DNA of 64,000 nucleotides from Cristatella mucedo (Eukaryota > Bryozoa > Phylactolaemata > Cristatellidae). Positions 1 to 63,835 of this stretch are shown piece by piece. Within the stretch, counting starts at the first letter, position 1. The number at the start of each line of letters is the position of its first letter. The stretch lies in assembly GCA_009760855.2 (NCBI GenBank), contig WPIO01000026.1, positions 1,617,501 to 1,681,500 on the forward strand, written 5' to 3'. The notes below the pieces were generated by a model, which made no database searches, had not been told where the DNA came from, and was given only the letters and a program-made list of their open reading frames with translations. Made by a program: the position numbers and the translations under genes.

Positions 1-29
1 ATCGTGTCCACACCGGATCAAGCGCTGTT
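1..29 (+). CDS. P4HA: Possible 3' end of an upstream P4HA exon
   Basis: A perfect donor GTAAGT starts at base 30. The 29 bases before it are open in the frame that would leave two bases to join the single-base overhang of the exon at 1991. The encoded residues (IVSTPDQAL plus a split Phe) do not resemble the YRVSKS-like segment expected at this place in the family. The coding status is therefore doubtful; the true upstream exon may lie outside the window. Confidence 0.3.
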
Positions 30-2841
30 GTAAGTCTCTCCCGACTGCATGTCAGCTTGCTCGAGCTGGCCTGCCTGGTCGACCAGGCACATGACTCGAT
101 GGCAATTAGTTTTCACTGAATTTAAATTATGTGCCCTGCTTGTTGTCTGAACATTTTTTATGGATGGAGTCTCTTGTATTTCAGGGTGCATTCTCATATA
201 TTCTTTCGTTCACAGCTGCATGGGGACAAGAACCAACGTCTTTATGGTGTGCTCGGACACTAATAATGCGACCTTGATAATAGTATTAATAATAATAAAT
301 TTGTTTAGTGCCCTCAGAGAACATACTCTCTATATATGCATTTTACTTATGCTATAAAGGGGGCACGATCAAATGGTTAATGGACCCAACCAAGGCATTT
401 GATCATTCGTGCTGCTTCGAGAGAGCTGACTCATTGGTGCACTGCTGTTCACACAGAACATACCTGCCCAACTGCCAAATCAGGCAGCACCTCACTCACC
501 AGTCGAATTTCAGAGCATCCACCTGTTACGCGACGTGGTCTTGTCTTACATGCCTGCTCGGTTATCCGGCTTATTAGTTGCTGCCATAAAGCTAAAAAAA
601 AGTTCCTTTTTAGTCATGAGAACACACATGCCATCTAATGCTCAGTGCTGTTCAAATGATGCATGTATAAAGAAAGCAGATTTTATTATGAAAGGGGATA
701 GATAAAGTGATTTTGTTTTTAATTGTCCGTGCACCTGTCGGCTGCTGATAAAGCTAGTGTATTCAAAAGGTGGTATTGCGTTATCAGGCTGCTACATAAA
801 CATGACCCGTGTCTAATGATCAGCCGATGTGTTATTTATTAACCAACCGAGACTTATTTGTGTGGGAGAATAATCGTGGATTGTCATGCTTATGTGCTAC
901 TTACATAAAACTTCCTTGGTAGAGTTGCAGATTCCGTTTTTGATGACAAATTATTAGCAGTACTGTTTTTCATGTTTCAACACTTGTAACTCAAAGGAAT
1001 TGTATTGCACGTGCCATGCTGAAAGATCAGTCCACCTGATGTTACAGCTGTGACTAGACTTCATGTCCCCAGCAAACTTCAATCCTTTGCACAGAAGGCA
1101 TGTTCAACTCACTTGCTAAAATATAGGTATTCGAAATAATCAGATGTTCTTGCAGAAAAGGTATCTTCCAATTCGTATCAGCATGTGATACCCTGATTTA
1201 TGCAGTAACACCTAGATCTGCTGACAAGCTGGACCAGTAAGATGACCAAGACTGCAGCAGTGACACGTTTTTTGTTCCTTATGCGAAGTCTAGGCGCTTG
1301 GCAGTGACTCGTGAGATACATGCTTTGTGAGGTCGGTCTGTGAGACAACTTTCGTTGGGAGTTAGGTCGTGTACTGTAGAAATGAGCAGTACTACAATGT
1401 TGAAACATCTGAGTTGATTGCATGTCAAACTTGGTGGTATCTACCACGAGCTTCATGCTCGTCATTATGAGTGGGTCGAAATGCCATTTTAAGTTTCTGC
1501 CTCCTGCACATTAAATATTCAAAAGTTCAAGTCGCCTAGATGTTGTTCGTGGAAAAAGGAAAGTAGTGAAATAAAAAAGGCCCCTAGTTGTTTTGATGAA
1601 AGGGCTTCCTTGCATATTCCATGAGGCTGCTGAGCCCGCATGTGGCATGAAGCCAAAGTTGGGAGGGAAAGAAGGGAGTCCACGGGCCGATCGCTTGTGA
1701 TCTCCATCTATGGCAAAGTCTAGTTGAGCTAAAGAAGCAAGCTAATATGCATAAACGTGTCAGTAACTGCTATTGCTACTGCTGGTATTTAAGCCAGCTG
1801 ACCGTAATGAAATTTGCTGTGCCATTCGAAACAGAATTGAACCTGGCTCACGTCCGAGATTTAGAAACCGAGGTGCTACAGCTTTTCTTGCATGCTGAAT
1901 AGAAGTAGTCTGAACAGGCATGCGCCTGTGCAGTGCATCTTCGATTTCCTGTCGTTGCTTGCAGTCAGTGGATTTTATGCACATTTTTAGTGGCTGGATT
2001 CGGGATGAAGAGAATGCCGTGATCAGGACCATAAGCAGACGTATCAGTGCAATGACAGGTCTTAGCCTTGAGACAGTGGAACAGCTGCAGGTTGGTGCTG
2101 CATTTGCGTTTTTTTTTCAATGTTATTTGCAGAGACCAGTTAGCCTTTGCATTACCGTCCTGCGATTACTGGAGTTTGCATTACTATCTCAGGATTGTCA
2201 GACAATAGACCTATTTTTTGCTTCAGCTTTATGAGTTTTTTCCGATAGGGTTGGATAGTCATGACAGCATATAAGCCAGATTTATTCTGACATTGCTTAA
2301 TTGGCTGGCCGCTGGCCAAGCCCAGTCTATGCACTCTGGCAGTCTAGACGGCAGCTGCCTGCATCGAGGGTCTAGCCCTCTTCTTTCCTCTCCTCTCTTC
2401 TGCACTCCTTCGGTAACCCTTATATTCCATGCTTGCATTGTTGTAGCACTGCCGAGCCATTGCTCGTCCCAGAACCGTCCGACAGCTGGCGGCAGTTTAT
2501 GGTATCCCTACAGTATGATGTCCCCACAGATGCATCCAATGCATGGATTTATGCCGGGCTGTCGAGTTACAGCTCGAACCATTGTCTGATCCTCAACCGC
2601 TCGTGAGCCGAAGCCTGCTCAGGCAGTTTGCTCCCTCGTCGTGCCACCGTCCAATGCTCTGCTCGAGGCCTCCTGAGTCACGTTCCCTTACATTCATTTT
2701 CTCATCAAAATTTGCTCTTGCACTGCTAATGTTTGCCCTTCGATGCGTGCATGCCCTGCCTCTCCTCGAATTCCGTCTGGCTTAAGCTAAAAAAAAGTCA
2801 TCTATTTATCAGAGCATTTAGTGGGCCCTTGTGATTCGTCT

Positions 2842-2892
<51 letters not shown>

Positions 2893-5800
2893 ATGTGTGT
2901 GTGTACGTGTGTGTACGTGTGTGTGTGTACGTGTGTGTACGTGTGTGTGTGTGTGTGTACGTGTGTGTGTATGTTGACACTGTACATGCTGCCATTAACC
3001 GTATTTGCATGCTGACCATGTCACATCTAACCATGTTATGCTTGTTGTCATTGAGTATGCTGCCACGAATCATTTGATCGTGCTTCCTTTGCTGCAAATT
3101 TAGAGTGCCTAGAAAGAGATTAAGCTGGGGGGGGCACTATGCAAATGTATTATTATTATTATTGTTGTTATTATTAACTGCTAGAACCGCTTTTTTTAAA
3201 CCTTTTATTTGACACCTAGACACAGCTTCTACCTTCGTTTAGGTTGCACTTCAATGGCTTGTGATAGTTTTAGAAGCCTTTTTGTAGCATAAAAGTTACG
3301 GTCAGGTCACTCACATTGTTTGTGCATTGCCTGCCTGCATTGCTTCCTTGTTGTAGGTTGTCAACTATGGAATCGGTGGCCAGTATGAACCGCATTTCGA
3401 CTTCTCTCGGGTACGATATTTTTTTAGATATTGGCATTTTTAATGAGAATGCCGTGTGCGGCTGCCATGCAGAAGTGCTGTGCAGGTCCGTGAGTTAGCA
3501 GTGCTCTTTGGGGGCTGACAGCTTTATCTTCATGTTTCACGAATCACATTAAAAGGCTGCACATTCTTTGTCGCAAAGTTGGTTGTGCTTTTGTGCTGAG
3601 GGCGAGGATTTGTTGCCGGCCAGGCTGAGGGACCGGCTGTGCATTAGGTAAGCTGTAAACTTTGTAACGGCTACCTTGAGACCGCTGACCCGCAAGGCCC
3701 ACCACGGCTTGGCTGCTCCGCACCTGATTCTCACGAACTTATTTGGATGTGAGGAGCACAATTATGCAACACGGTGAAAATTCTTTACGGTGTAAAATTC
3801 AAAATGTTGCTCACAGTCAAGTGCCATGCACTAGAAGTATTCAACTAATTGACATTGTAGCTTGGCTAACCTAACTTTTTGTGCTACTGCTAATATGTTG
3901 CCAGCAAATAAAGATATGATGTCAAGTCAGTGATTCCGATCTGGTTGCTCTGATGGCACAGCACAGTGTACCCTTTTGTGTAAAGCAGCCTTACTGGAAA
4001 TATGTTGGAGCTAGTGCATTTCGTAGTCTTGAATCTATACAAATTGCCCTATTAATGACTCAGGAGATGGTGAAAGTGTTAGCATAAAAAAACATTAGAA
4101 ATCTTAATTGTTAAGAATTTTCCGAAAATTAATAATGCCGAGCTGGTTTGGTCCAGCGGTAAAGGTGCTCGCCCCGACCAACCAACTACTTGATTTATAT
4201 TGCATCCACTGTTGCAGTTCAGTTCCACATAGGATGTGTGAACAGTGATGCCGCGGTGCCTTGCCGTGTGGCCGAGCTACTGCTGTGAGCCGTGTGCAGC
4301 GTGGATTGCTGTTTGCAGAGAAAGTTTCCCGAAAGCGAAACTTTTGATAAGAGCATTGGCAACCGAATTGCGACTTGGATATTTTATGTAAGTATCGGGT
4401 GGGAACCCGGTGCATGACTAACGCGTTGCATGCTTTAGGTTCATCATGATACTCACCAGTTTGAGGAAGAGATTGGCAATCGCATTGCCACGTGGATCTT
4501 CTATGTAAGTGAAGCACTTGAGGGATGGACCCTTTACTCGGCCTCGAGAGAGCTGTGGGCCTTGCTCGGCCTTGACCTGCCATGTCTGGATGATGCTTTC
4601 GGTTTCGCGAATCGTGCTCAGCTTCTGCCGTGCCGACCGGGCACTCATTGGGCACCCCCTTTAGCACGGCTAGCGCTTTGAGTTGCACCTTGTACTGCTG
4701 TCGTTCATGCATTCCTTTTGGTGGGTGAGTGCGTTGTTTCGGTATGTTTTTATGTCCATTCAGCTCAGTATGTTGAGCCTCTTGAAGCCTATGCTCTTGG
4801 CCGCTATCAGCTTGCGCAAACCGCAGCTCCCTCGCTTTCCGAACGGGTGAAACGAAGGTCTCGCAAAAAATGGACGGCTGGGGCGTGCTCACCCGTTCTC
4901 GCTGCCGTTCTGCGGCAAGCGTCTCACGCACGCACACTAACGAGACCGAGCTGTCGCAGCTGCTGCCGTGTGCCGCTCGAACTGGCTGGGGCTTCCGGCA
5001 TCGTTTCCTGCCGCTGCCTCCTGTCCCGAGCTCCGCTGCCGCTCGCTCCGCCGCCCGCGTGCTGACACTGCAGATGCTTCCCTTGCTGCCCTTCTCGTTG
5101 ACGCTTAGCTCTTCCATCCTCCTCCTGCTTGCTTGTTTATTTTTCTTGGCGAGTTCCTTCGTGGCCTCAGCCCGTGGCTGAGGGAGAGAAGAGAGAGGAG
5201 ACAGACAGCAGCCCGGGTGTTATGGGCCGCAGTGCATAGCGTTTTCTGAGGCAATCTCTTTCCTTTTTTATGCCTCCAGTGGTTGGTTTTTTTTTAAGCC
5301 AGGTGACTCTCGCTGGCCACGTGACGGCTCGCAGAGTGTGCATAGCAGCAGCTTCCGGCGTCGCCGATAGTCTGTCGGCAAGTGAAACGTCGGCTGAGCA
5401 TCTGAGCGTTTTCCTTCGTCGATGCATTAATGTGTGTTCCAGCACGGCCCGCCCCTCTCTTTGTCTTCATGTTTACACTGAAAAGGTTGCCAGTTAACAC
5501 TAAACTCGCACTCTCGAGAGCCAATTGCAGCATCGTGTATATGGATAAGGCGCGTGGGCAGCGGTGTGTATGCATTATTGTGGTGTAGTCTACCGTATGA
5601 GCAAGTCATTCCAGTTTAGAAGGGAACTGCTTGCGTGGATTTAAAGCACGTGGCTATAAATTATACGGTACCTCGGCTTCCAAACGCTGGTGAATTTGCA
5701 CAGGTTTTTGTCACACTAGTAGTTGTATGGTCTCTTCTAGACAGGGTTTGGGAACGAATTTGGAAGCCAATGGGATCGCTTTATGCTTTTATGGAATCGG

Positions 5801-8800
5801 ATCATGATCAAATCTCCATTAACTTTGCTTGTCATTAACTCTTGGTTAATGCTTCTTTTGCAGTAGATTCTTCTCCTTCGTTACATTGCAATAGACATTG
5901 TTATTATTGAAGTCGATATTACGAGTATCTCGGCCCTCAGCCTATCTTCTCAAGGTTTAGTGGTCACTGCCTGCAGTCGGGCTATCGAGCATGTTTATTC
6001 TGAGCCCGAACAGCCTTTTGTGATTTACGTGCTAGCGATCTCAATTATGTATGGAGTGAAAGTGTCGTAAAGTGTGCAACCAAGTAGGTATCGAAGAAGC
6101 AAACACTCTGTATGTAAGGGCACGGTAATATATTGCTCAGGAATGATCTGCTTCTAGTGCTCGTTAAGCAGCTTTAGCTCGTTAAGGCAAAAGATGCCCC
6201 AATAGTTAGGAAATGGTGAATGTAGATGGTGAAGCTTCAAGCCTCCCGTGAACAGTAGCAGCTGTGTGGATAAAAAAAAGTGCAAACTTTGATATGCTTG
6301 CGCAGAACTTGTCTTCGAACTATCGTTCCTCAAGTTATTGCTAATCCTATCTAAGGAAGAGTTTGATCACAATGTTGCAGAAAGAGCACGTCGGTTCTGG
6401 TACTTTTGCAAGCAGACCTTACAGGATTGGTGCATAGTTTTCGACTGACGTGCAAAATAAATTCAGATAGTGGTATGAATAATAATAATAATAATAATAA
6501 TATTGCACTTGATAAAGCGCCCTCAGAGAACTTAATCTCTTTCTAGGCGCTTTACATTTGCTGCAAAGTGATACGCAATAGAATAGTAAGTAAAATCATG
6601 CTTGAAAAACAAACAAAATGAATAACATGGTTAGGGGTTACATGCACTGGGTCAGCATGCAAATGTGGTTAGTGGCAGCATGAACAGTGTCAGCACGCAT
6701 AAGCACATCGAGGACGAATCACAAGGACCCACTAAATGCTGTCCTAAATAGGTATGTTTGTAAGTTTCTTTTAAATGTGGTCAGGTCAGGGGATGTTCTG
6801 ATGCAGGTCGGGAGGGAGTTCCAGGCTTTGGGAGCATACGAGCTAAATGCACGGTCTCCAAAGGATTTAAGGTTTGTACGAGGTATTTCTAGACTGTTGG
6901 ATTCCGAAAAGCGAGTGGTACGATGCTTTGCCTGATGGGGTAGTATATCTGAAAGATAGGCTGGAGCCATAGAATGAAGAGACCTAAAAGTGAGCGACAA
7001 AACCTTGAAGTCAATCCGTTGCTTGACTGGTAACCAGTGCAGGTCGGCGAGAAGTGGAGTAATGTGGCAACTGCGACGCTCACGACAGACAAGCCTAGCT
7101 GCAGAGTTTTGCACCAGCTGCAATCGCCTGATCGCACATGCTGGTAGGCCAGTAAGCAGTGAGTTGCAGAAGTCGAGACGAGATGTCACGAATGCATGGA
7201 CCAACTTGGACGTGGTATCCTTATCTAAACAAGCCCTAATTTTAGCAATGTTATGAAGCTGAAAATAGGCTGATTTGACTGTGGAGCTGATGTGGTCGTC
7301 TAACGAGAGGTCGCTTTGGAATATGACACCTAGATTTCGAGCTGATGCAACTGGAGATATGCTGGCAGAGCCAATTTTGAAAGTCAGCCTTTCCAATTTC
7401 TGAATAACACTAGGTTTGCCCATAACTAGTAAGTTAGTTTTATGGAGAAAACCCTGCTTGGAATCCCATCTTTCATAATTCGTAGCCGTACAACGTCAAA
7501 CATAAACCGTGCTTGGCATCTTTCAGACGGCATATGCGAACAATATTAAACAAGTTTGACAAGAAGTTCGAGACTGGCAGTTTCTAAGGCACTCATTGTG
7601 AGCTTGTATGCAGTGCTTGAAAGTGTTAACTGGTCTTGATTGTATGAACTGTTTGGTCAGATCCTAGACATGAAAAATCTCGTGGAAGCAATTCTTTTTT
7701 CAGCATGCCAGTTAATCCGTGGAAAAGCAGCTTAGCACGGGCCCCTGGATAAGTTACACTGAAACTCGGCTAGTTAGACGTTAATTACACATCATTTAGG
7801 AAGTTTGAGGTCTTCGAGATTCATTTTCACAGTTGATCTGCAGAAAGCAATGTATAAATAGGGAATGCAGTCAATGACTGTGCTGGGCATGATAATGCTT
7901 ACATCGTTGTCTGGATTTTGATATTGTTTGAACAGAACTCGATGGTAGTAATGAAATCTACTCTTACAGAAAACAAATTAATACTCCAGTTGTAAGGCTT
8001 AAAACTGAATCCACTTTGCATTAAATGTTTACCAAGAGCCCTGAATTGCTCCGTGTAAAATCGGTTTGTTGTACTCAACAGCTCTATCCTTTGCAGCAAA
8101 TTTAAAGTGCCTAGAAAGAGATTTGAGTTCTCGGAGAGTGCTATATCAAATGTATTATTATTATTATTATCATCATCATCATGCATTTGGCCAAGAATCA
8201 GGCCATCTTCTAACTTATGACTCCCTATATAGGCCATGGTTTGTTTCTGTGCTTCATCTTACATGATGCAGGAGTGTCAAACATGGTGCAAAGTGCTTCA
8301 GTTGATCCAATTTTAAAAACAATGCTCTGGCCTTGACAGCATTTGATCCATTACAGGCTCAATGGCATGTGCTCCAGATGTCGAGTTCAGTTTTCTGCTT
8401 TATTAGTCGCTGACCTCAAAACCCTTGAGCACCGGGACTGCATATCAGTGGTCCTTAATTAGTGGCTCTTTTGGTCCCCACATCGCATTGACTGCTTCAT
8501 TTGGTTGTGACATTTTTCAGGTGAGGTGTCAGTGTCTTTCTAGGGTCTTGGCCTTTGTTAAGGTCTGCCAATTGCCACGTTTACGTGATTGTATCATCAT
8601 GCGATACTTAATTCGTCAGGATTTGTTGGCAGTATAGTCCAGACTCAATTTTGGAGTTACTGGTTTTCGAGGGTTTGACAGTTCTTAATAGCCGATTTGT
8701 TTAATGCTCGGCTTTTCGGTTTCTGGGGATATTAAATGTAATTCATTTGTATATTTGATTGTTCATTTTAACTTAATCTCTATCCTAGCGCTTCTCATAT

Positions 8801-11800
8801 GCTGCATGGATGATACAATTATTTCGTGAGATGCATCCTTTGTGCTGCCTACTCCGTATTCTGCTAATGTAGGCTAGATTTGCCTCTGCCTATGGCTTGT
8901 AGAGAGGCCAGGCTGCTTTAGACTCAACTAATGTGAGCACTTTGTTCCTCTAATACTTTGCTCTGTGTTTAATATCCTGTGAGCTAACAGGAAGCATGGC
9001 AAATATCTCAGCACTCTGGGCGTAACAGCTGCGATTTTTTGTCCAATAATGTAGTGTAAATACTTCCTGTCCTGTTATTTAATGTGCACACTTTGGCTCG
9101 TCCAGCTGCCGGACTTTCATTAAACCCATGATCTATTGTCTCCTTGGTCAGTTTATATCACTTGTTTGTTTTTATATGCAGCTGAGTGACGTTGATGCTG
9201 GAGGAGCGACCGTCTTCACGTCCATCGGTGCCAAGATTTGGCCGAAAAAGGTTAGTGAGCTTTTGCTTTGGTGTTTGGGATGCCTTATGTTACTTTTGGG
9301 TTCTGGGATATTGGTGCCGTGTTTCGGAGTCCATCTACCGTGTGTGCAGCAAAGCAGCTGAGCCGACGATGGCCGGGATTTCCAAAAAGAACCTGCATAC
9401 TGTCTGGTCTGGATAATGCTTTTGGATTGTATTATGAAATAGCCACAACTATGTCTTGTGCTGCCATATTTGATAGCAGCGTTCGAGCCTTTATCCGGTT
9501 GTCGGCTACGGCTTACGGATAACAAAACAAAGCACAGATGATAGGCTGCATAAGTTACAAGGTCACACTACAAAGGAGTTTGGCTGTTTGGTGCTGTAAT
9601 TTCTTTTAGACTTGACTTCAGCGACCCACACTCGTAGATGATCTTATAAGAAAAGCCTCGTATCCTGAAAATTAGCTTGCTGTACAGAGTGGCAAACCCA
9701 TAATTCGTTATTTCTACGGAGTGTGTCAAACTGAACTTTAAAATTACTCTCTACGGAGTGTGTCAAACTGAACTTTAAAATTACTCTCGTAAGTGGGAAC
9801 AGCAATGACCTGTTTTTAAAAGCTAAGTTCGAGTAAGCCAGCAACGTATTAAATCTCTTAATGGAAAACCAGGAAAACGAAGCTGGTCTGTGCTAATTCT
9901 GTAAAGCCGCCATTCAGCCACTTTCAAGAAAACAGAGTACTGTAGATCAGTGACTGCTAAATGCATGCTCGAAATAGTATGGAGGACAAGAAACATTCAG
10001 TCCCTTGATGCTGTTAGATTTTCATACCGGTGTTATTCTCCGGCTGGCAGTACCCGATATTCATATCCTGTGTACAGAGTTTAGACACATAGCCATGTTT
10101 TGGATGCTGTACAGATTTTAACATTATTTTAAGATCGCTGCTTTTTCAAAACTTGTCTAACTGACCTGAACACCACTTTCCGTTTTCTGTTTGCATCTTT
10201 GCCTTTATCGCGTGTCTAATGTAAGGCGGGGAATTTGGGAATGACCCTGCCTATGACACAAAACTAGGCATAGAAAGTGAGCTTTCAGCATGCATCGCAA
10301 GTCTGTGAACATGTTCAGAAAACTCAGATGTTCACAGAAAGAGAAATTAGCCCACTGCTTCCGGTAGCTAGAGATTGAGATTACCTTAAAATTCTTGCCA
10401 GCATTGGTGGCTATATGCTTCGTATTTTCTAATACGTACCGAAAGCCGCTTAGGCTGTGAGTGTTGTCTAGAAAGGTTTCATTTGTAGCACCCACTTAGT
10501 CATTAGAGATGCAATACATTATATTGCATACTTGTGACCCAGTGCATGTATCTGGATGCCACTGACACTCAACAAATCTACAAATAAAATAAATTGCGAT
10601 CTCTGCATCATATAATAATAGTAATAATAACACACTTGATAAAGCGCCATCAGAGAACTCAATCTTTTTCTAGGCGCTTTACATTTGCTGCAAAGGAAAC
10701 ACGATCGAATGGTTAGTGGTAGCATGCTCGATAACCAACAAGAATAACATGGTTATGGGTGACATGCACAGGGTTCAGCATGCAAGTGTGGTTAGTATGC
10801 ACAGGTGGCATATGCGACTTGTATTCCAATTTGTTGAACCTTAGTAGATCGAGATACATGCTTAAAGCTAGTTAAGGTTGTTGTTGAGGTTGAGCTTGTT
10901 GACTGCCCTCTTTTGACTTCTATCCAGCTTTATTTCTTGGGTAGTTTGGTGCCTTGTAAGTGTCATAGCTCGGCTAATACTTCACGTATGGGAGTAAAAT
11001 TTGAAATGCGAGTTCAGCTCTGCTTGTTTCAAATGAGGCAAGAGAAATTTCTGATTTCGGCAGGATACATTTTGCTGTTAACGTCATCAAACGTACCGGA
11101 GCTTTATTTTCCATAACCGTGGACATATAGGTCAGTAGTATCTCTCTGCTAGTTCTGCCTCATCTCTCGGCCGCTTTTGATACCATTGATCACTAAGACC
11201 TTATTGAGCACCTATCGTCTCGTTGAGGCTTTAGTGGTACCTACTGCACTGGTTTAGGTCCAGTCTCTGTAGGAGGCTTCAAAGCACAGATGTCAAGGCC
11301 CTATGGGGAGCCTTTGAAGTATGGGTACCCCGTGGATCTGTTCTAGGTCCACTTCTTTTTCAGTTTATACTCTCGTTCTTGCCGATGTAATCACCAATCA
11401 TAGTCTAGGCTTTCATTGTAATGCAGATAACACTCAGTTGTACCTGGGCTCTCATCCCCTACCTTCCAGCTAGGCAAACTCTCCCTTTCACAATGTACTT
11501 TGTGCTCGAATGTCATCTCCATTTGCTTCTCCATCTACTTCCCACCCCGGCACTAGCCAGGGGATCAGAACTCGGCATCCCTTTTGCTGGGCGAGTCATA
11601 GCCCTGTGCTCGGTTGCTAGGTGCAAGCCAAGACTCAGGCCAATCGGAGCAAAGCCGGTTGGTCGAAGGCGAGCGAGTCCCTGTTAGAATTAACGTCCAC
11701 GTGCCAGTGGAAAATAATAATAATAATACATGTGTATAGCACCCTCAGAGAACTGAATCTCTTTCTAGGCACTGTACAGATGCTGTATAGAAAACATTAC

Positions 11801-13659
11801 CAAATGATTGTTGGTAACATTCGCAAGCAGAAGGTACGGTATATCAGGCAAATGCACACGATGGATGAATCACAAAGGCCCACTAAATACTGTAATAAAC
11901 AGGTGTGTTGTAAGGTTCTTTTTAAATTTAGTCATGTCAGGGGACGTTTATCGGTAGTTAGTTCCAGGCTTTGGGAGCATAGGAACTAAAGGCGTGGTCT
12001 CCAACGGTTTTGATGTTCGTACGATGTATGGCTAAACCATTCGAGTCAGAACAACGGGTTATGTGACTCTTTACCTGGTGGGGAAGTATTTCTGATAGGT
12101 AGGCTGGAGCCATAGAATGAAGAGACCTAAAATACAGCGTTGCCAAGTACTGCTTAGTACAAGTGCTCTCGAAAGTTTTTTACTGTTTAGAAAGGCACGC
12201 AGCTAAACTCGAAACATAGTTATGAGGTAAACATAGCGTCTTTTCAAAAACTGAAAAGGCTGACCCTCAGAATGGATATGGCCTGCATATATCCTGAAGT
12301 GTCAGCAAGCAGTGTGGGTTTCCTGTTCAAAAATGACCTTTCACTAGATGACCACATCAGCTCCACAGTTAAGTCTACCTTCTTTAAGCTATATAATGTC
12401 GAAACATTTGGTGTTGCTTAATAATAATGATGCCACAGCCAAGCTTGTTCGTGCCCGTGCGACATCCTTCTCGACTAATGGAACTCACTACTTGCTGGTC
12501 TTCACTCTCTAATGCAAGAAGGTGAAAACACTTCTGGAGCGAGGCTTTCTGCCGTGAACGTTGCAACTGCCACATTAGGCCACTTCTCATCGACCTGCGC
12601 TGGCATATCGAAAGCATCGAAGCATATCGAAAAGGTTTTGTTTCTCTCCTACTCCTCAGGCTTGCCATGGTAGTGCCTGCTCTTATGACTTAAGTCGTTT
12701 AGTTGTATCTCTAACCAACTTTAAGTCATTTGGAAACCGTGCCTGCAATTGATATGTTCCCAAAGCCTGAAACTCACCTCCAACCAGCATCACGACATCC
12801 CGTGACTTGACATTGAAAAAGAAGTTTGTTGCTCACTGCATTTGCTGCATTGGTGTGAATTGTCCTTTGTGTGCTTATATATGCCGACACTGTGCATGCT
12901 ACCAATTGATATGCTTGCTTAATAATAATAGTACATTTGTATACCACCTTCAGAGAACTTGATCTCTTTCTAGACATTCTTTACATTTGCTGCAAAGGAA
13001 GCACGATCGAATGGTTAGTGGTAGCTTGCTCAATGTCAACAAGAATAGCATGGTTAGAAGTGATAAGCACAGGTTTAGCATGCAAAAATAGTTTGTGGCA
13101 GCGTGCACAAGTGTCAGCACGAACAAGCACACAAAGGACGAGTCAAATGGACCCACTTAATGCTGTGACAAATAGATGTGTTTTAGCTTCTTTTTAAATG
13201 TCCTTCCAATCATATATAAAGTACCAAGGAAGAGATTGAGTTCTCTTTAAGAGCTATGCAAATATGTATTAATTTATTATTGGTGTCTGCACACTGTTCT
13301 GCTTTGATCACAGGGTACGGCCGCCTTTTGGTTCAACTTGTACAGGAATGGTGAGGGAGACATGGAAACCCGCCATGCTGCCTGCCCTGTCCTTGCCGGC
13401 TCCAAGTGGGGTGAGTCATCGGGTTGATGCCAGTTCTATTCAAGCCAGCTGTCGTTCGTCGTGTTCCATCACATCGCCCATCTGTTCACTTATGTATGTT
13501 GTATGGGCTTCTTTTTGCTGTTGGCTTCACGTGTTTGAGTCTAGTCCCCGAATCTTCTGCACCTGTCAAGTTCCCTTCTTTCTTTTAGTGGCCAACAAGT
13601 GGTTCCACGAGCGTGGACAGGAGTTTCTTAGACCTTGCGGTCTGTCCGAAGACGCCTGA
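1..13659 (+). CDS. P4HA: P4HA gene, 3' half: prolyl 4-hydroxylase alpha subunit (spliced; entry spans exons and introns)
   Basis: The exons encode the catalytic domain of collagen prolyl 4-hydroxylase alpha, the ER enzyme that hydroxylates proline in X-Pro-Gly repeats using Fe2+, 2-oxoglutarate, O2 and ascorbate, normally as an alpha2beta2 tetramer with protein disulfide isomerase. Visible signatures, in order, are NYGIGGQYEPHFDF (first iron-binding His and the Asp), GNRIATWIFY, DVDAGGATVF, IWPKKGTAAFWFN, TRHAACPVLAGSKW (second iron His and the 2-oxoglutarate-binding Lys) and NKWFHERGQEFLRPCG, close to the family C-terminus. Exons join in phase at GT-AG sites and end at TGA 13657-13659. The N-terminal peptide-binding and dimerisation region lies upstream of the window. 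Two homologous versions of the GNRIATWIFY exon are present. The C-terminus looks more like vertebrate P4HA2 than P4HA1, but that is a by-eye impression, so paralogue assignment is not claimed. Confidence 0.95.
30..1990 (+). other. Intron or upstream flank of P4HA
   Basis: Non-coding, moderately AT-rich. It contains one short minus-strand LINE 3' end (262-385). No other exon, RNA or mobile element is recognisable. Short open frames on both strands have no protein-like features. An acceptor (pyrimidine-rich tract then TTTTTAG) ends at 1990. Confidence 0.6.
262..385 (-). repeat. LINE family A 3' end, minus strand
   Basis: An imperfect AATAAT tail is followed by the complement of the family A terminal hairpin (GTGCCCTCAGAGAAC) and the subterminal block with CACGATCAAATGGTTA. 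Truncated 5'. Confidence 0.7.
1991..2090 (+). CDS. P4HA: P4HA exon (segment before the iron-binding motif)
   Basis: Bounded by acceptor TTTTTAG and donor GTTGGT. One base completes an upstream codon, then 33 codons follow, starting GWIRDEENAVI and ending MTGLSLETVEQLQ. This matches the P4HA segment whose usual form is ...RI..MTGL.V.TAE.LQV immediately before the NYG-GGQYEPHFDF exon. Length 100 nt, ending in phase 0. Confidence 0.92.
2807..3176 (+). repeat. LINE family A 3' end with internal GT expansion
   Basis: Reads GCATTTAGTGGGCCC, a GT tract, then ACACTGTACATGCTGCC, the terminal hairpin block (GTGCCTAGAAAGAGATTAAG) and a TATTATTATT tail. In sister copies the position of the GT tract is a short GTGTGCTTATGCGTGC stretch, so the microsatellite grew inside the element. 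A G-run replaces part of the hairpin loop. Confidence 0.85.
2843..2971 (+). repeat. (GT)n microsatellite
   Basis: About 130 bp of GT repeats interrupted by regularly spaced TACGTG variants, inside the LINE 3' end. Confidence 0.95.
3357..3410 (+). CDS. P4HA: P4HA exon with iron-binding HxD motif
   Basis: Eighteen codons, phase 0 at both ends, acceptor TTGTAG and donor GTACGA. Encodes VVNYGIGGQYEPHFDFSR. The His and Asp of HFD are two of the three Fe2+ ligands of the 2-oxoglutarate dioxygenase fold. Confidence 0.96.
3411..4318 (+). other. P4HA intron upstream of the alternative exons
   Basis: AT-rich and unique, apart from a short tRNA-like SINE head at 4137-4185 about 130 bp before the first alternative exon. 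Ends in GCTGTTTGCAG. Confidence 0.85.
4137..4185 (+). repeat. SINE family 2 head fragment (tRNA-like)
   Basis: GCCGAGCTGGTTTGGTCCAG followed by CGGTAAAGGTGCTCGCCCCG matches the 5' tRNA-like part of the fuller SINE 2 copies at 35103-35263 (+) and 22101-22246 (-). The B-box half and LINE-like tail are missing. Confidence 0.6.
4319..4387 (+). CDS. P4HA: P4HA alternative exon A (mutually exclusive candidate)
   Basis: Twenty-three codons, phase 0 at both ends, acceptor TTTGCAG and donor GTAAGT. Begins RKFPESETFDKS and ends IGNRIATWIFY, the segment just after the HFD motif in the double-stranded beta-helix. It encodes the same protein segment as exon B, 51 bp downstream. Its 3' intron (4388-4438) is too short to expect normal splicing to exon B, so transcripts should use A or B. 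Confidence 0.9.
4388..4438 (+). promoter_or_regulatory. 51-bp intron between alternative exons, with close branch point
   Basis: Starts GTAAGT and ends CTTTAG. A consensus branch site CTAAC lies at 4418-4422 with its adenosine at 4421, only 33 nt from the donor. Spacing this short is known to block splicing between paired exons by steric interference (classically alpha-tropomyosin). The pyrimidine tract before exon B is weak (TGCTTTAG). Confidence 0.75.
4439..4504 (+). CDS. P4HA: P4HA alternative exon B (mutually exclusive candidate)
   Basis: Twenty-two codons, phase 0 at both ends, donor GTAAGT. Begins VHHDTHQFEEE and ends IGNRIATWIFY, identical at the protein level to exon A over the last 11 residues but different in the first part and at many synonymous sites. 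The synonymous divergence implies an old duplication with conserved protein. Both exons are multiples of three, so frame alone would not forbid tandem inclusion. Confidence 0.9.
4800..5200. other. CpG- and GC-rich block inside the P4HA intron
   Basis: Dense CG dinucleotides and C/T-rich tracts (GCTGCCGTTCTGCGGCAAGC). A minus frame stays open across it, but it also runs antisense through both alternative exons and has no protein-like character. It could be a regulatory element or an alternative promoter; nothing decides this. Confidence 0.35.
6478..7441 (-). mobile_element. CR1/L2-like LINE (family A), 5'-truncated, intact C-terminal frame
   Basis: From its 3' end (AATAAT tail at 6478-6503) the minus strand carries the terminal hairpin, the 3' UTR and an open frame of 234 codons (7423 to 6719). 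That frame encodes the C-terminal part of a non-LTR reverse transcriptase: SARNLGVIFQSDLSLDDHIS, LDFCNSLLTGLP, LQLVQNSAARLV, HITPLLADLHWLPVKQRIDF, SYAPKAWNSLP. These blocks follow the RT and thumb in CR1/L2-group LINEs. The copy breaks off before the catalytic YADD motif. It closely matches the plus-strand copy at 22544-23419, so both are relatively young. Confidence 0.9.
8085..8182 (+). repeat. LINE family A 3' tail
   Basis: GCAGCAAATTTAAAGTGCC, AGAAAGAGATTTGAGTTCTC, then a TATTATTATT tail that changes into CATCAT repeats. Confidence 0.8.
9182..9250 (+). CDS. P4HA: P4HA exon (SDVDAGGATVF)
   Basis: Twenty-three codons, phase 0, acceptor ATGCAG and donor GTTAGT. Encodes LSDVDAGGATVF and SIGAKIWPKK. 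The SDV-AGGATVF block is the beta-strand segment diagnostic of P4HA. Confidence 0.96.
9714..9787. repeat. Exact 37-bp tandem duplication
   Basis: Units 9714-9750 and 9751-9787 are identical (each begins CTACGGAGTGTGTC and ends AAATTACTCT). Confidence 0.97.
10433..10510 (+). repeat. LINE family B 3'-end fragment
   Basis: ACCGAAAGCCGCTTAGGCTG is shared with 43015-43063, 57240-57310, 58020-58085 and, more divergently, 30560-30630. Confidence 0.6.
10611..10805 (-). repeat. LINE family A 3' end, minus strand
   Basis: AATAATAGTAATAAT tail, complement of the terminal hairpin (AAAGCGCCATCAGAGAAC), then the conserved 3' UTR. Confidence 0.85.
11130..11520 (+). mobile_element. Degenerate LINE reverse-transcriptase fragment
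   Basis: In broken frames it reads SAAFDTIDH (RT motif A), VPRGSVLGPLLF (motif B region) and a decayed C-NADNTQLY where YADDTQLY (motif C) is expected. Several stops and frameshifts make it non-functional. Confidence 0.75.
11705..12136 (-). repeat. LINE family A 3' part, minus strand
   Basis: AATAATAATAAT tail, hairpin complement, 3' UTR, then the C-terminal coding remnant (SLHSMAPAYLSEILPHQ, AFSSYAPKAWN) read on the minus strand. Confidence 0.85.
12170..12920 (+). mobile_element. Decayed LINE family A C-terminal region
   Basis: Plus-strand remnants include GACCACATCAGCTCCACAGT and the 3' UTR words GTGCTTATATATGCCGACAC and TGTGCATGCTACC. Frames are broken throughout. Confidence 0.65.
12921..13202 (-). 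repeat. LINE family A 3' end, minus strand
   Basis: AATAATAATAG tail, CTCTTTCTAGAC hairpin complement, 3' UTR through ACCCACTTAATGCTGTGAC. A plus-strand tail at 13205-13282 abuts it head to head. Confidence 0.8.
13205..13282 (+). repeat. LINE family A 3' tail
   Basis: AAGGAAGAGATTGAGTTCTC, then GCTATGCAAATATGTATTAA and a TTATTATTGG tail. It lies 32 bp upstream of the next P4HA exon. Confidence 0.7.
13314..13410 (+). CDS. P4HA: P4HA exon with second iron His and 2-oxoglutarate Lys
   Basis: Thirty-two codons plus one base, acceptor GATCACAG and donor GTGAGT. Encodes GTAAFWFNLYRNGEGDMETR and then HAACPVLAGSKW. The His of RHAACPVL completes the iron triad. The Lys of GSKW is the 2-oxoglutarate C-5 carboxylate ligand. 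Confidence 0.97.
13589..13659 (+). CDS. P4HA: P4HA terminal exon
   Basis: Two bases complete Val, then ANKWFHERGQEFLRPCGLSEDA and TGA. The acceptor is a strong pyrimidine tract ending TTTTAG at 13588, and the preceding intron is 178 bp. This is the canonical P4HA C-terminus. Confidence 0.97.
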
Positions 13660-22430: not shown

Positions 22431-22543
22431 GACGCCGTGTTAGTCCAATAAAATCCTGCAATGAACAGGCTCATACTGTAGACCCGCAGCGTTTCAGTAT
22501 CAAGTTTTTTGTCCCTCGATGCATTTCGCGCCTATATATCTGC

Positions 22544-23419
22544 AAAAGGCTGACTTTCAAAATTGGCTCTGCCAGCATATCTCCAGTTGAATCAGCTCGA
22601 AATCTAGGTATCATATTCCAAAGCGACCTCTCGTTAGACGACCACATCAGCTCCACAGTCAAATCAGCCTATTTTCAGCTTCATAACATTGCTAAAATTA
22701 GGGCTTGTTTAGATAAGGATACCACGTCCAAGTTGGTCCATGCATTCGTGACATCTCGTCTCGACTTCTGCAACTCACTGCTTACTGGCCTACCAGCATG
22801 TGCGATCAGGCGATTGCATCTGGTGCAAAACTCTGCAGCTAGGCTTGTCTGTCGTGAGCGTCGCAGTTGCCACATTACTCCACTTCTCGCCGACCTGCAC
22901 TGGTTACCAGTCAAGCAACGGATTGACTTCAAGGTTTTGTCGCTCACTTTTAGGTCTCTTCATTCTATGGCTCCAGCCTATCTTTCAGAGATACTACCCC
23001 ATCAGGCAAAGCATCGTACCACTCGCTTTTCGGAATCCAACAGTCTAGAAATACCTCGTACAAACCTTAAATCCTTTGGAGACCGTGCATTTAGCTCGTA
23101 TGCTCCCAAAGCCTGGGAACTCCCTCCCGATTTAAAAGAAACTTACAAACATACCTATTTAGGACAGCATTTAGTGGGTCCTCGTGATTCGTCCTCGATG
23201 TGCTTATGCGTGCTGACACTGTTCATGCTGCCACTAACCACATTTGCATGCTGACCCAGTGCATGTAACCCCTAACCATGTTATTCATTTTGTTTGTTTT
23301 TCAAGCATGATTTTACTTACTATTCTATTGCGTATCACTTTGCAGAAAATGTAAAGCGCCTAGAAAGAGATTAAGTTCTCTGAGGGCGCTTTATCAAGTG
23401 CAATATTATTATTATTATA
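22544..23419 (+). mobile_element. CR1/L2-like LINE (family A), 5'-truncated, plus strand
   Basis: Near-identical sister of the 6478-7441 copy in the opposite orientation. It has C-terminal RT blocks (KLVHAFVTSRLDF-like, LVQNSAARLV, HITPLLADLHWLP, SLHSMAPAYLSEIL), 3' UTR, hairpin (AAAGCGCC / GGGCGCTTT) and (ATT)n tail. It lacks about 36 bp within the coding region (after 23130) relative to its sister, destroying the C-terminus. Confidence 0.92.
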
Positions 23420-26801: not shown

Positions 26802-27860
26802 TGTAGCACAGCGCTGGCCTGACTCAGTTTTAGAGCGCATGAGAATTGCTCAGCAGGAAACACCTCTGCCCTTAAGCAAGAGGACGCAGCCATCGTAGTA
26901 GGTCAATGAGGTGATTGATATTGGCTGGCCTGTCAACCCTATAGTCCCGCCTAGCAATTTGAGAATAGGGCAACGCTTGCCCAAGGTCGCGGTCGCCGCC
27001 AGCCATCCTAGATTTGCTGGACGGTTTCCGTGAGAACAAAAGAAGTGGGTGAAGAGCATCTGCGTTCTCGAGCTGTGAGCAAATGGACGCAGAGGTCACT
27101 GAGGTGATTGATATTGGCTGGGTTGTCAACCTCATTGTCCCAGCTAGTTATATAATGATAGGGTGACGCTCGCTAGCGGTTCCTTCATCTTCGGCTCCGT
27201 CTCGACACCGTCGCCGGACTTGTTTCTCTGAAAGCGAGGGAGGAGGGCGAGCTGTTCGCCGGTGATTGAGGGACAGGACGGGACAGCGCCAGGAGGATTC
27301 GGTGGACGCCACCGAATACGGTCGCATAGCGCTCGAGCTCGTATTTTTGTGTTTCTTCTGAGTTTTGTGTGTCTGTGCGTGCACGTGGTATCGCCAAGAG
27401 TGCTTGGTGTAGTGTGTGAGGTATTCCTGCCATTAAGGTGGAAGCGCAGCCCTAGTTCTCCGGTCAGGGTTTAGGCTCCGGTCCGGGCTCCTCGTCTTAT
27501 TTGGGTCGTTCCCCACAATAAACTTAGTTAGCCTAAGTTTGGGGACGTATTCCCTCCGCAAACGAGTTTGTGCTGTTGAGAGCGTGTGAGGAGTGTGGAG
27601 ATAAAACTGAGCTAGACGAACAGCGACTGCGCTTGCGAATAAAGCTCAGTAAAATTCCCTATTTGTGTGTGCCTCTTTCTAATTCACGCCGCGGACTCAC
27701 GACCCCTTTAGTAACGGTAGGTAGGCCAGCGCCAGTAACGCTCGTTTCGTGGCGGCCTGCTTATTGCGCGTAGGCGCGCACCGAACGGCATTGGGCGGTA
27801 GGTTACGCCGCTAAGTAAGCGGTAGGTTAAGTCTACTCCGCCAGAACCTTCGGCGTTACA
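26802..27860 (+). mobile_element. Solo LTR (1,059 bp) of an LTR retrotransposon
   Basis: Begins TGTAGCAC and ends GGCGTTACA, the TG...CA termini of LTRs. It is flanked by 4-bp duplications AAAG (26798-26801 and 27861-27864); excising it restores the LINE sequence. A TATA-like TATATAA is at 27149-27155 and AATAAA signals are near 27520 and 27639, giving a plausible U3-R-U5 layout. A block around GAGGTGATTGATATTGGCTG occurs twice (about 26908 and 27102). The 4-bp duplication suggests the Ty3/gypsy group. No internal coding region remains, consistent with LTR-LTR recombination. Orientation is inferred from the TATA and poly(A) order. Confidence 0.85.
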
Positions 27861-28206
27861 AAAGGTCACTTTGGAACATGAGATCTAGATTTTGTGCAGA
27901 TTCAACAGGAGATATGCTGGCAGAGCCGATTTTGAGCGTCAGTCTTTCCAATATCTGAATCACACTTGGCTTGCCCATAACTAGTAAGTTAGCTTTATCA
28001 TAATTTAATTTAAGAAAACTTGCTGCCATCCATGTGCGGATGTCATCAATACATGCAGCAAATGAGTTGAGAGAATTCGAGGTGCTCGAAGGCTGGGAGG
28101 AATCAAAGCAAAGGTACAACTGAGTATCATCCGCATAAAAGAGAAAGCCTAGATTGTGCTTGGCAATCACATCGGAAAGAGGGGGAGTATAAACTGATAG
28201 ATAGAG

Positions 28207-28208
<2 letters not shown>

Positions 28209-28256
<48 letters not shown>
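28209..28256. repeat. (GA)n microsatellite
   Basis: Uninterrupted GA repeats at the 5' break of the LINE copy. Confidence 0.95.
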
Positions 28257-28262
<6 letters not shown>

Positions 28263-28906
28263 AGAGAGTGACAAGAGGCAAGGGCACTCGTTTCAAAACT
28301 GAAGTTTACGCGTTCGCCACATTTTCGCCTTAGTACTTTCCTGAAAGATTTTTTCGTGTTGTGCATAACAGTATTGCGGTCGCAATTGTAATCTTTTAAC
28401 ACAGGAAAGTATTCACATTAGCGGTCAAGGGCTACTCATTGGCACCCTAGTATCGTGAGCAGGTGGAACATTCTTATCTTAAAACGCAGTTCACATTTTC
28501 CTCAAGGCTCTCAAATTTAGGAGCTATACGGTTATGCAGAGAGCCGCGAACGCCTACACCTCCATCATTGTTATGCATGTAAACAGAACACTGACTTTCA
28601 CAGGACATCACATCACATCACATCACCAGTATGAATGGTGTACATGGAAAGTAAGGCCGGTAAAACAGGTTGTTATTTTTGTAAGGGCAGTCGCGAACAG
28701 ATCAAGACGGCTCAAGCAGATGCCGTTTATTGCGGAAACGCGGAACCGGGTCGTGCGGCTACGCCAACTGAATGGACGGCGGCAGCAGTGGATCGTCATC
28801 CGGGATGGCACGAGATCGTGGCCGAGTATACACGTGCACGAGCCGTCGATGAGCTGGCGCGTGGTCTTTGGGCAAAAGAAGTCCTGACCGGCGACCACCC
28901 ATCCCA
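28257..28906. other. Intergenic, nothing recognised
   Basis: Overlapping frames stay open on both strands between about 28530 and 28910, but they have no recognisable motif. A CATCACATCACATCACAT pentamer repeat lies at 28608-28625. Confidence 0.45.

Positions 28907-34499: not shown

Positions 34500-63835
<29,336 letters not shown>

Follow-up and report, generated by a model that had tools for sequence, protein, structure and literature searches.

A collagen prolyl 4-hydroxylase alpha-subunit (P4HA) gene of the bryozoan Cristatella mucedo contains two neighbouring homologous exons, A and B, that encode alternative versions of a segment beside the iron site. Judging from sequence, we put at roughly 0.83 the probability that they are a mutually exclusive pair that swaps the betaII-betaIII loop, with joining of A to B blocked mainly by steric hindrance. 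The exon at 3357-3410 would be spliced to either A or B, which the exon at 9182 would then follow. Whichever exon was chosen would supply the loop that closes over the procollagen peptide, and the beta-strand that follows would stay unchanged. Exclusivity in the RNA would come from the 51-nt intron that separates the pair, whose predicted branch point lies close enough to the donor of A that U1 and U2 snRNPs would be unable to bind together in this species.

A P4HA gene with paired exons beside the iron site

The window, as we call the whole 64,000-nt stretch analysed, holds the 3' half of the gene on its plus strand in seven exons, all GT-AG (Table 1). Pfam recognises the P4HA domains: P4Ha_N (PF08336) at 108.8 bits (cut-off 25.3) in a query of three exons joined by eye, the 2OG-Fe(II) oxygenase domain (PF13640) at 59-60 bits (cut-off 27), and TPR_P4H (PF23558; cut-off 27) at 55.5 bits in psb1 and 58.3 bits in psb2, two upstream exons described below. 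The iron and 2-oxoglutarate motif, compared with residues named in PMC9676403, is present as HFD in exon 3357-3410 and as RHAACP and SKW in exon 13314-13410. The first base of exon 1991-2090 finishes a codon begun in the preceding exon. Exactly 2,500 N (C188:1615001-1617500, on the contig of the window) end one base before the window and hide the P4HA exons between the peptide-substrate-binding (PSB) domain and position 1991. We infer that the gene is continuous across this N run. Elsewhere in the genome, a lone copy of exon 1991-2090 occurs on the minus strand at C221:3262228-3262329, with 79% protein identity; 381 columns of that segment, flanks included, align with the window at 87%, and no further P4HA exon at E 1 or better was found in the 19.9 kb read there.

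Table 1. Exons and introns of the Cristatella mucedo P4HA gene. Coordinates are window positions unless a contig is named.
Feature	Position	Strand	Details
P4HA catalytic-domain exon, GWIRDEENAVIRTISRRISAMTGLSLETVEQLQ	1991..2090	+	similar to human P4HA; acceptor TTTTTAG, donor GTTGGT
Exon with HxD iron ligands, VVNYGIGGQYEPHFDFSR	3357..3410	+	54 nt, phase 0/0
Exon A, RKFPESETFDKSIGNRIATWIFY; loop variant RKFPESETFDKS and strand IGNRIATWIFY	4319..4387	+	69 nt; PDB match human P4HA2 7zsc
A-B intron	4388..4438	+	51 nt, GTAAGT...TTTAG
Exon B, VHHDTHQFEEEIGNRIATWIFY; loop variant VHHDTHQFEEE and strand IGNRIATWIFY	4439..4504	+	66 nt; PDB match human P4HA2 7zsc
Exon 3' of B, LSDVDAGGATVFTSIGAKIWPKK	9182..9250	+	phase 0/0
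Exon with distal iron-ligand His and 2-oxoglutarate Lys, GTAAFWFNLYRNGEGDMETRHAACPVLAGSKW	13314..13410	+	
Final coding exon, (V)ANKWFHERGQEFLRPCGLSEDA and stop	13589..13659	+	
psb1, peptide-substrate-binding-domain exon	C188:1612666-1612850		185 nt; ~4.7 kb upstream of window base 1
psb2, peptide-substrate-binding-domain exon	C188:1614526-1614686		161 nt; ~2.8 kb upstream of window base 1

A first-pass annotation of the window had described A and B as a homologous exon pair adjoining the iron site of a P4HA gene, with a common ending of 11 residues and differing N-terminal parts. Exon boundaries, translations and human matches bear this out, and the annotated coordinates of both exons and of the intron between them are exact to the base. 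In a PDB search the A-form and the B-form each align with human P4HA2 (7zsc) over the iron-site region. Both exons run from phase 0 to phase 0, are similar in length and have their own splice sites.

What the pair encodes can be placed on known structures. Passages of PMC9676403 put Arg435-Gly448 of human C-P4H-II, directly after His430-X-Asp432, in the betaII-betaIII loop, and describe how in the Chlamydomonas enzyme this loop and a hairpin loop make a peptide-holding tunnel. The same passages describe P4HA2 variants at the betaII-betaIII loop, citing Nokelainen 2001 for the alternative exons, and P4HA1 variants that alter the hairpin loop. The window pair thus corresponds to P4HA2 exon 12 and not to the P4HA1 pair; the annotation's statement that vertebrate P4HA genes have an exclusive pair at the corresponding position holds for P4HA2 but fails for P4HA1. 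Like human P4HA2 12a/12b, A and B swap both the sequence and the length of the loop, keep a conserved strand after it and occupy the same site in the catalytic domain. The human exons, named 12a and 12b, are mutually exclusive. A count of charges by eye gives a roughly neutral variable part in A and an acidic, His-rich one in B; the choice between them would alter substrate preference. As for the hairpin-loop exon, the site of the P4HA1-type pair, nothing in window positions 1-1992 rose above shuffles, and each of the three paralogs described below has one clear match, with an additional 9-residue match (E 3.1) in C486b.

Several features suggest that both exons are maintained. Over the last 11 codons, A and B show six synonymous and no nonsynonymous differences, and only 13 of 200,000 neutral simulations with six changes retained the shared peptide. 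Synonymous sites are saturated between the two (pS 0.84). Together these values make both A and B look old and under coding constraint, and a recent duplication, or a recent gene conversion of the 11-codon segment, is very unlikely. By a simple score, the acceptors of A and B are the weakest of the gene's seven in the window (0.5 and 1.4 vs 3.3-9.8). Weak acceptors are frequent in regulated exons. They would also suit a decaying or unused copy, but that either exon is one seems highly unlikely: GTAAGT donors and AG acceptors are intact on both, none of the six differences changes an amino acid, and synonymous divergence has reached saturation without introducing a stop. A third A/B-like exon was not found on the plus strand between 3411 and 9181, where the listed candidates above the null all lie inside A or B and the best candidate outside them scores 9, against a shuffled maximum of 20 in 10 shuffles.

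A proposed block to A-B joining at a 51-nt intron

Reading frame does not keep A and B apart. The joined form stays open in phase 0/0, and the lengths of A and B would likewise preserve the frame if both were skipped, so only splicing itself could prevent these outcomes. The first-pass annotation was therefore right that frame would not reject double inclusion. It erred in calling exon lengths divisible by three unusual for such a pair: passages of PMC5740500 report non-divisible exons in 60% of the clusters of mutually exclusive exons (MXEs) in a human atlas, leaving about 40% without them. At 69 and 66 nt, A and B lack the frame-based exclusion seen in the psb pair (185 and 161 nt). Incompatibility of U2 and U12 sites is also absent, as the donors of A and B are GTAAGT, the A-B and neighbouring introns are GT-AG, and mixed sites do not occur. 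Retention of the A-B intron brings in at least one in-frame stop.

An open joined frame raises the possibility that A and B are normally included in series, as a 45-residue insert with a repeated strand. Lengths divisible by three, 0/0 phases and joining without a stop would all allow this. With A alone (59.2 bits) or B alone (60.1 bits), the Pfam catalytic domain is found as an unbroken stretch. It falls to 39 bits with neither, and with both reaches a total of 64.7 bits, above either alone; the summed score by itself is thus no argument against A+B. That total, however, is spread over two stretches, which means the joined protein splits the domain. Among the alignments listed (5/7 each for the A-form and the B-form), the PDB relatives of P4H have no second copy of the strand. 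Moreover, 3/3 paralogs have one loop exon, and a 51-nt intron is under the floor of the sizes sampled below. We give serial inclusion very little credence and retain mutual exclusion.

The A-B intron itself would supply the block. Its sole yTnAy motif is CTAAC, with the branch A at intron nucleotide 34, 33 nt from the donor and 17 nt to the AG; the motif search thereby confirms the spacing noted at first pass. The published steric threshold is about 50 nt between donor and branch. Passages of PMC7969005 describe OGDH branch points at 25-41 nt that enforce exclusivity in human, and passages of PMC5740500 report potential steric interference in 57 of 629 human MXE clusters (9%). At a predicted 33 nt, the A-B intron falls within this steric class by a threshold that is vertebrate-derived. 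It resembles known steric-interference MXEs, including OGDH 4a/4b (PMC7969005) and the 57 human clusters (PMC5740500), in placing the branch less than about 50 nt from the upstream donor. It differs from them in that the whole intron is shorter than any in our genome sample and the branch-acceptor distance is a conventional 17 nt, not that of a distant branch point.

That sample comes from the 572-Mb assembly containing the window and covers two families, PF00063 (91 hits) and PF00118 (79 hits), for 170 exon hits. All 92 gaps between adjacent exons (40 + 52), taken as estimated introns, are at least 76 nt, in a sample where introns of length divisible by three could hide within single exon hits. 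Splice sites were resolved for 33 of 33 short-gap introns, from pairs picked by eye, and the minimum was again 76 nt; one of them, whose best solution is 82 nt, has a lower-scoring 49-nt alternative. Predicted donor-branch distances are at least 49 nt in 30/33 introns (the 30 kept had positive splice-site sums; three were dropped), compared with 33 nt in the A-B intron, all branch points being predictions. Exon hits with an excess of at least 8 codons number 1/91 and 8/79 in the two families. One such excess spans 25 codons and contains stops, as an intron of about 75 nt might; another, of 14 codons in open frame, resembled a loop insertion on inspection; the others span 9-14 codons. The sampled minimum of 76 nt against 51 nt backs the annotation's description of a short intron that would block joining sterically. 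Against it, ultra-short introns are spliced in some animals. If our reading is correct, the A-B intron is a clean case of an intron held below its own species' usual size floor.

RNA structure could add to the block. The A-B intron RNA has a stronger computed fold than most of its shuffled versions (z -2.36; 3 of 200 shuffles do as well), and a predicted 9-bp hairpin at nucleotides 5-26 takes in donor positions +5 and +6. This hairpin could further hinder splicing, though as evidence it is weak.

Repeats are present elsewhere in the window. Repeated frames occur at 6491-7495 and at ~22500-23150, neither with a Pfam match; we take both to be LINE-like. A sub-threshold Pfam match to reverse transcriptase lies at 27856-28305. 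The LINE-like copy between B and exon 9182 matches one on C221 at 94% identity across 835 bp, which indicates that the B-to-9182 intron took an insertion while the 51-nt A-B intron is small.

Paralogs and the origin of the pair

Three further P4HA genes lie head-to-tail in tandem on contig C486, within 926000-1041000. In the stretches read, each has one loop exon and one first-PSB exon. Their loop exons, of 63, 66 and 63 nt, occupy the same intron positions and phases as A and B; for the C486a exon the acceptor chosen is the one preceded by the better pyrimidine tract, although an alternative of 57 nt scores 2 points more. A second loop exon above the shuffled null was found in none of the three. 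The strand ends in WIFY in A and B, and in F[LI]NY in the C486 exons and in human P4HA2 12b (PDB). We assume that human 12a also ends in F[LI]NY and that human P4HA1 ends in WLFY.

These comparisons bear on whether the pair reflects deep conservation or convergent duplication, both of which the first-pass annotation had entertained. Because just one loop exon occupies these intron positions in 3/3 paralogs, and because the WIFY ending has no counterpart in the paralogs or in human P4HA2, the pair most simply arose within its own gene lineage, convergently with P4HA2, an origin better supported by the sequences than deep conservation. B has its best match in the C486b loop (13/22 residues) and for this reason may be nearer to the ancestral form.

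The alternative is that A/B are orthologous to P4HA2 12a/12b, through one duplication in the bilaterian ancestor kept in both genes. The loop is the same, and a tree built from the catalytic exons minus the loop joins the window gene to human P4HA1/P4HA2, leaving the C486 genes outside (ultrafast bootstrap 90, SH-aLRT 97); that tree has 7 rows and a long outgroup branch, its support falls short of the strong mark, and its P4HA2 row comes from PDB letters. Presumably the human P4HA2 loop exon also has the same intron positions as A/B, and we take 12a to begin R-x-F, as does A; both points count for orthology. However, the strand is the same in A and B and differs from that of P4HA2, which reads ATFLNY in 12b by PDB and presumably in 12a too. 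The single loop exons of the three paralogs count against orthology as well, as does the placing of P4HA1 variants in the hairpin loop in passages of PMC9676403, and several losses plus concerted evolution would be required. We regard orthology as improbable. A/B and 12a/12b were compared by pairwise identities, 22 residues being too few for an informative tree.

On present evidence, then, convergence is preferred, and the window pair differs from P4HA2 12a/12b in being independently duplicated, in its 51-nt intron, in WIFY rather than FLNY, and in having a second candidate pair in the PSB domain of the same gene. If this is correct, the substrate-tunnel loop of collagen P4H acquired alternative exons at least twice independently in animals. 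Such recurrence would suggest that the betaII-betaIII loop is a site of collagen-preference tuning.

The human P4HA1 pair (9a/9b in PMC11868403, 10a/10b in PMC5224494) also consists of homologous exons in a substrate-binding loop of a collagen P4H alpha subunit, but in the hairpin loop (PMC9676403). Its exclusivity is described in passages of PMC11868403 as hypoxia-regulated through CTCF and ATF3, whose sites in the intervening intron are ~380 bp apart, so that, unlike in the window, size gives no steric block; passages of PMC5224494 describe a response to U2AF. By analogy with these CTCF/ATF3 and U2AF effects, A/B choice is likely regulated in trans. Among the matches listed from the open-access literature, none reports mutually exclusive exons in the P4HA gene of an invertebrate, and a term search found neither "P4HA" nor "prolyl" in the main texts of three exon-duplication surveys (PMC9741552, PMC4465641, PMC5740500).

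A candidate second pair in the substrate-binding domain

Upstream of the window, psb1 and psb2 are both homologous to the first part of the human PSB domain, lie 1.7 kb apart and have identical entry and exit phases. Both match human PSB structures. They agree with each other at 21/53 residues and with human P4HA1 at 27/52 (psb1) and 27/51 (psb2). Both have lengths of 2 mod 3, and an mRNA that included the two together would run out of frame into a stop. Five first-PSB exons pass the cut-off genome-wide, two in the window gene and one in each C486 gene; second PSB exons, below the cut-off, were found genome-wide in the three C486 genes only and not for the window gene. At pocket residues 158/192/193/196/199, numbered per passages of PMC12433258 and placed by our own count on the human sequence, psb1 has Y-D-Y-F-Y and psb2 F-D-Y-Y-A, differing at 158, 196 and 199 (3/5) and agreeing at 192 and 193.

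By these features, psb1 and psb2 are probably a second mutually exclusive pair in the same gene, policed by frame and not by intron size, and would be spliced into the P4HA gene across the N run. They may otherwise be fragments of a partial tandem copy of the gene, the rest of which sits inside the 2,500-base N run. The run does hide the following exons, and the missing second PSB exon would fit. However, tblastn over 54.5 kb found a single set of N-terminal exons and a single set of catalytic exons, and psb1 and psb2 share acceptor and donor phases and both pass the TPR_P4H cut-off. We consider a partial copy unlikely, though a serious competitor, and favour an exclusive pair.

Taken as a whole, the gene might carry two exclusive pairs, one in the TPR domain kept apart by frame and one at the catalytic loop kept apart by a short intron. 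It could then make up to four isoforms that swap both substrate-holding elements, with choices maybe coordinated to yield collagen-specific hydroxylases. We hold this combined picture tentatively, at a little under even odds. Such a gene would offer naturally occurring swaps of loop and groove with which to study how the enzyme reads procollagen.

Two observations concern other genes. At window positions 48875-49276 on the plus strand, an exon of another gene encodes the beginning of a TIM-barrel domain of glycoside hydrolase family 31 (PF01055; 38 residues, 35.5 bits, cut-off 23.5). In the same assembly, contig C688 is mitochondrial, with COX1 by Pfam, and reads sensibly with code 5. Frames that we take to be COX3-, ATP6- and ND3-like stand in a row with COX1 on one strand, in a gene order presumably unlike the arthropod ground pattern.
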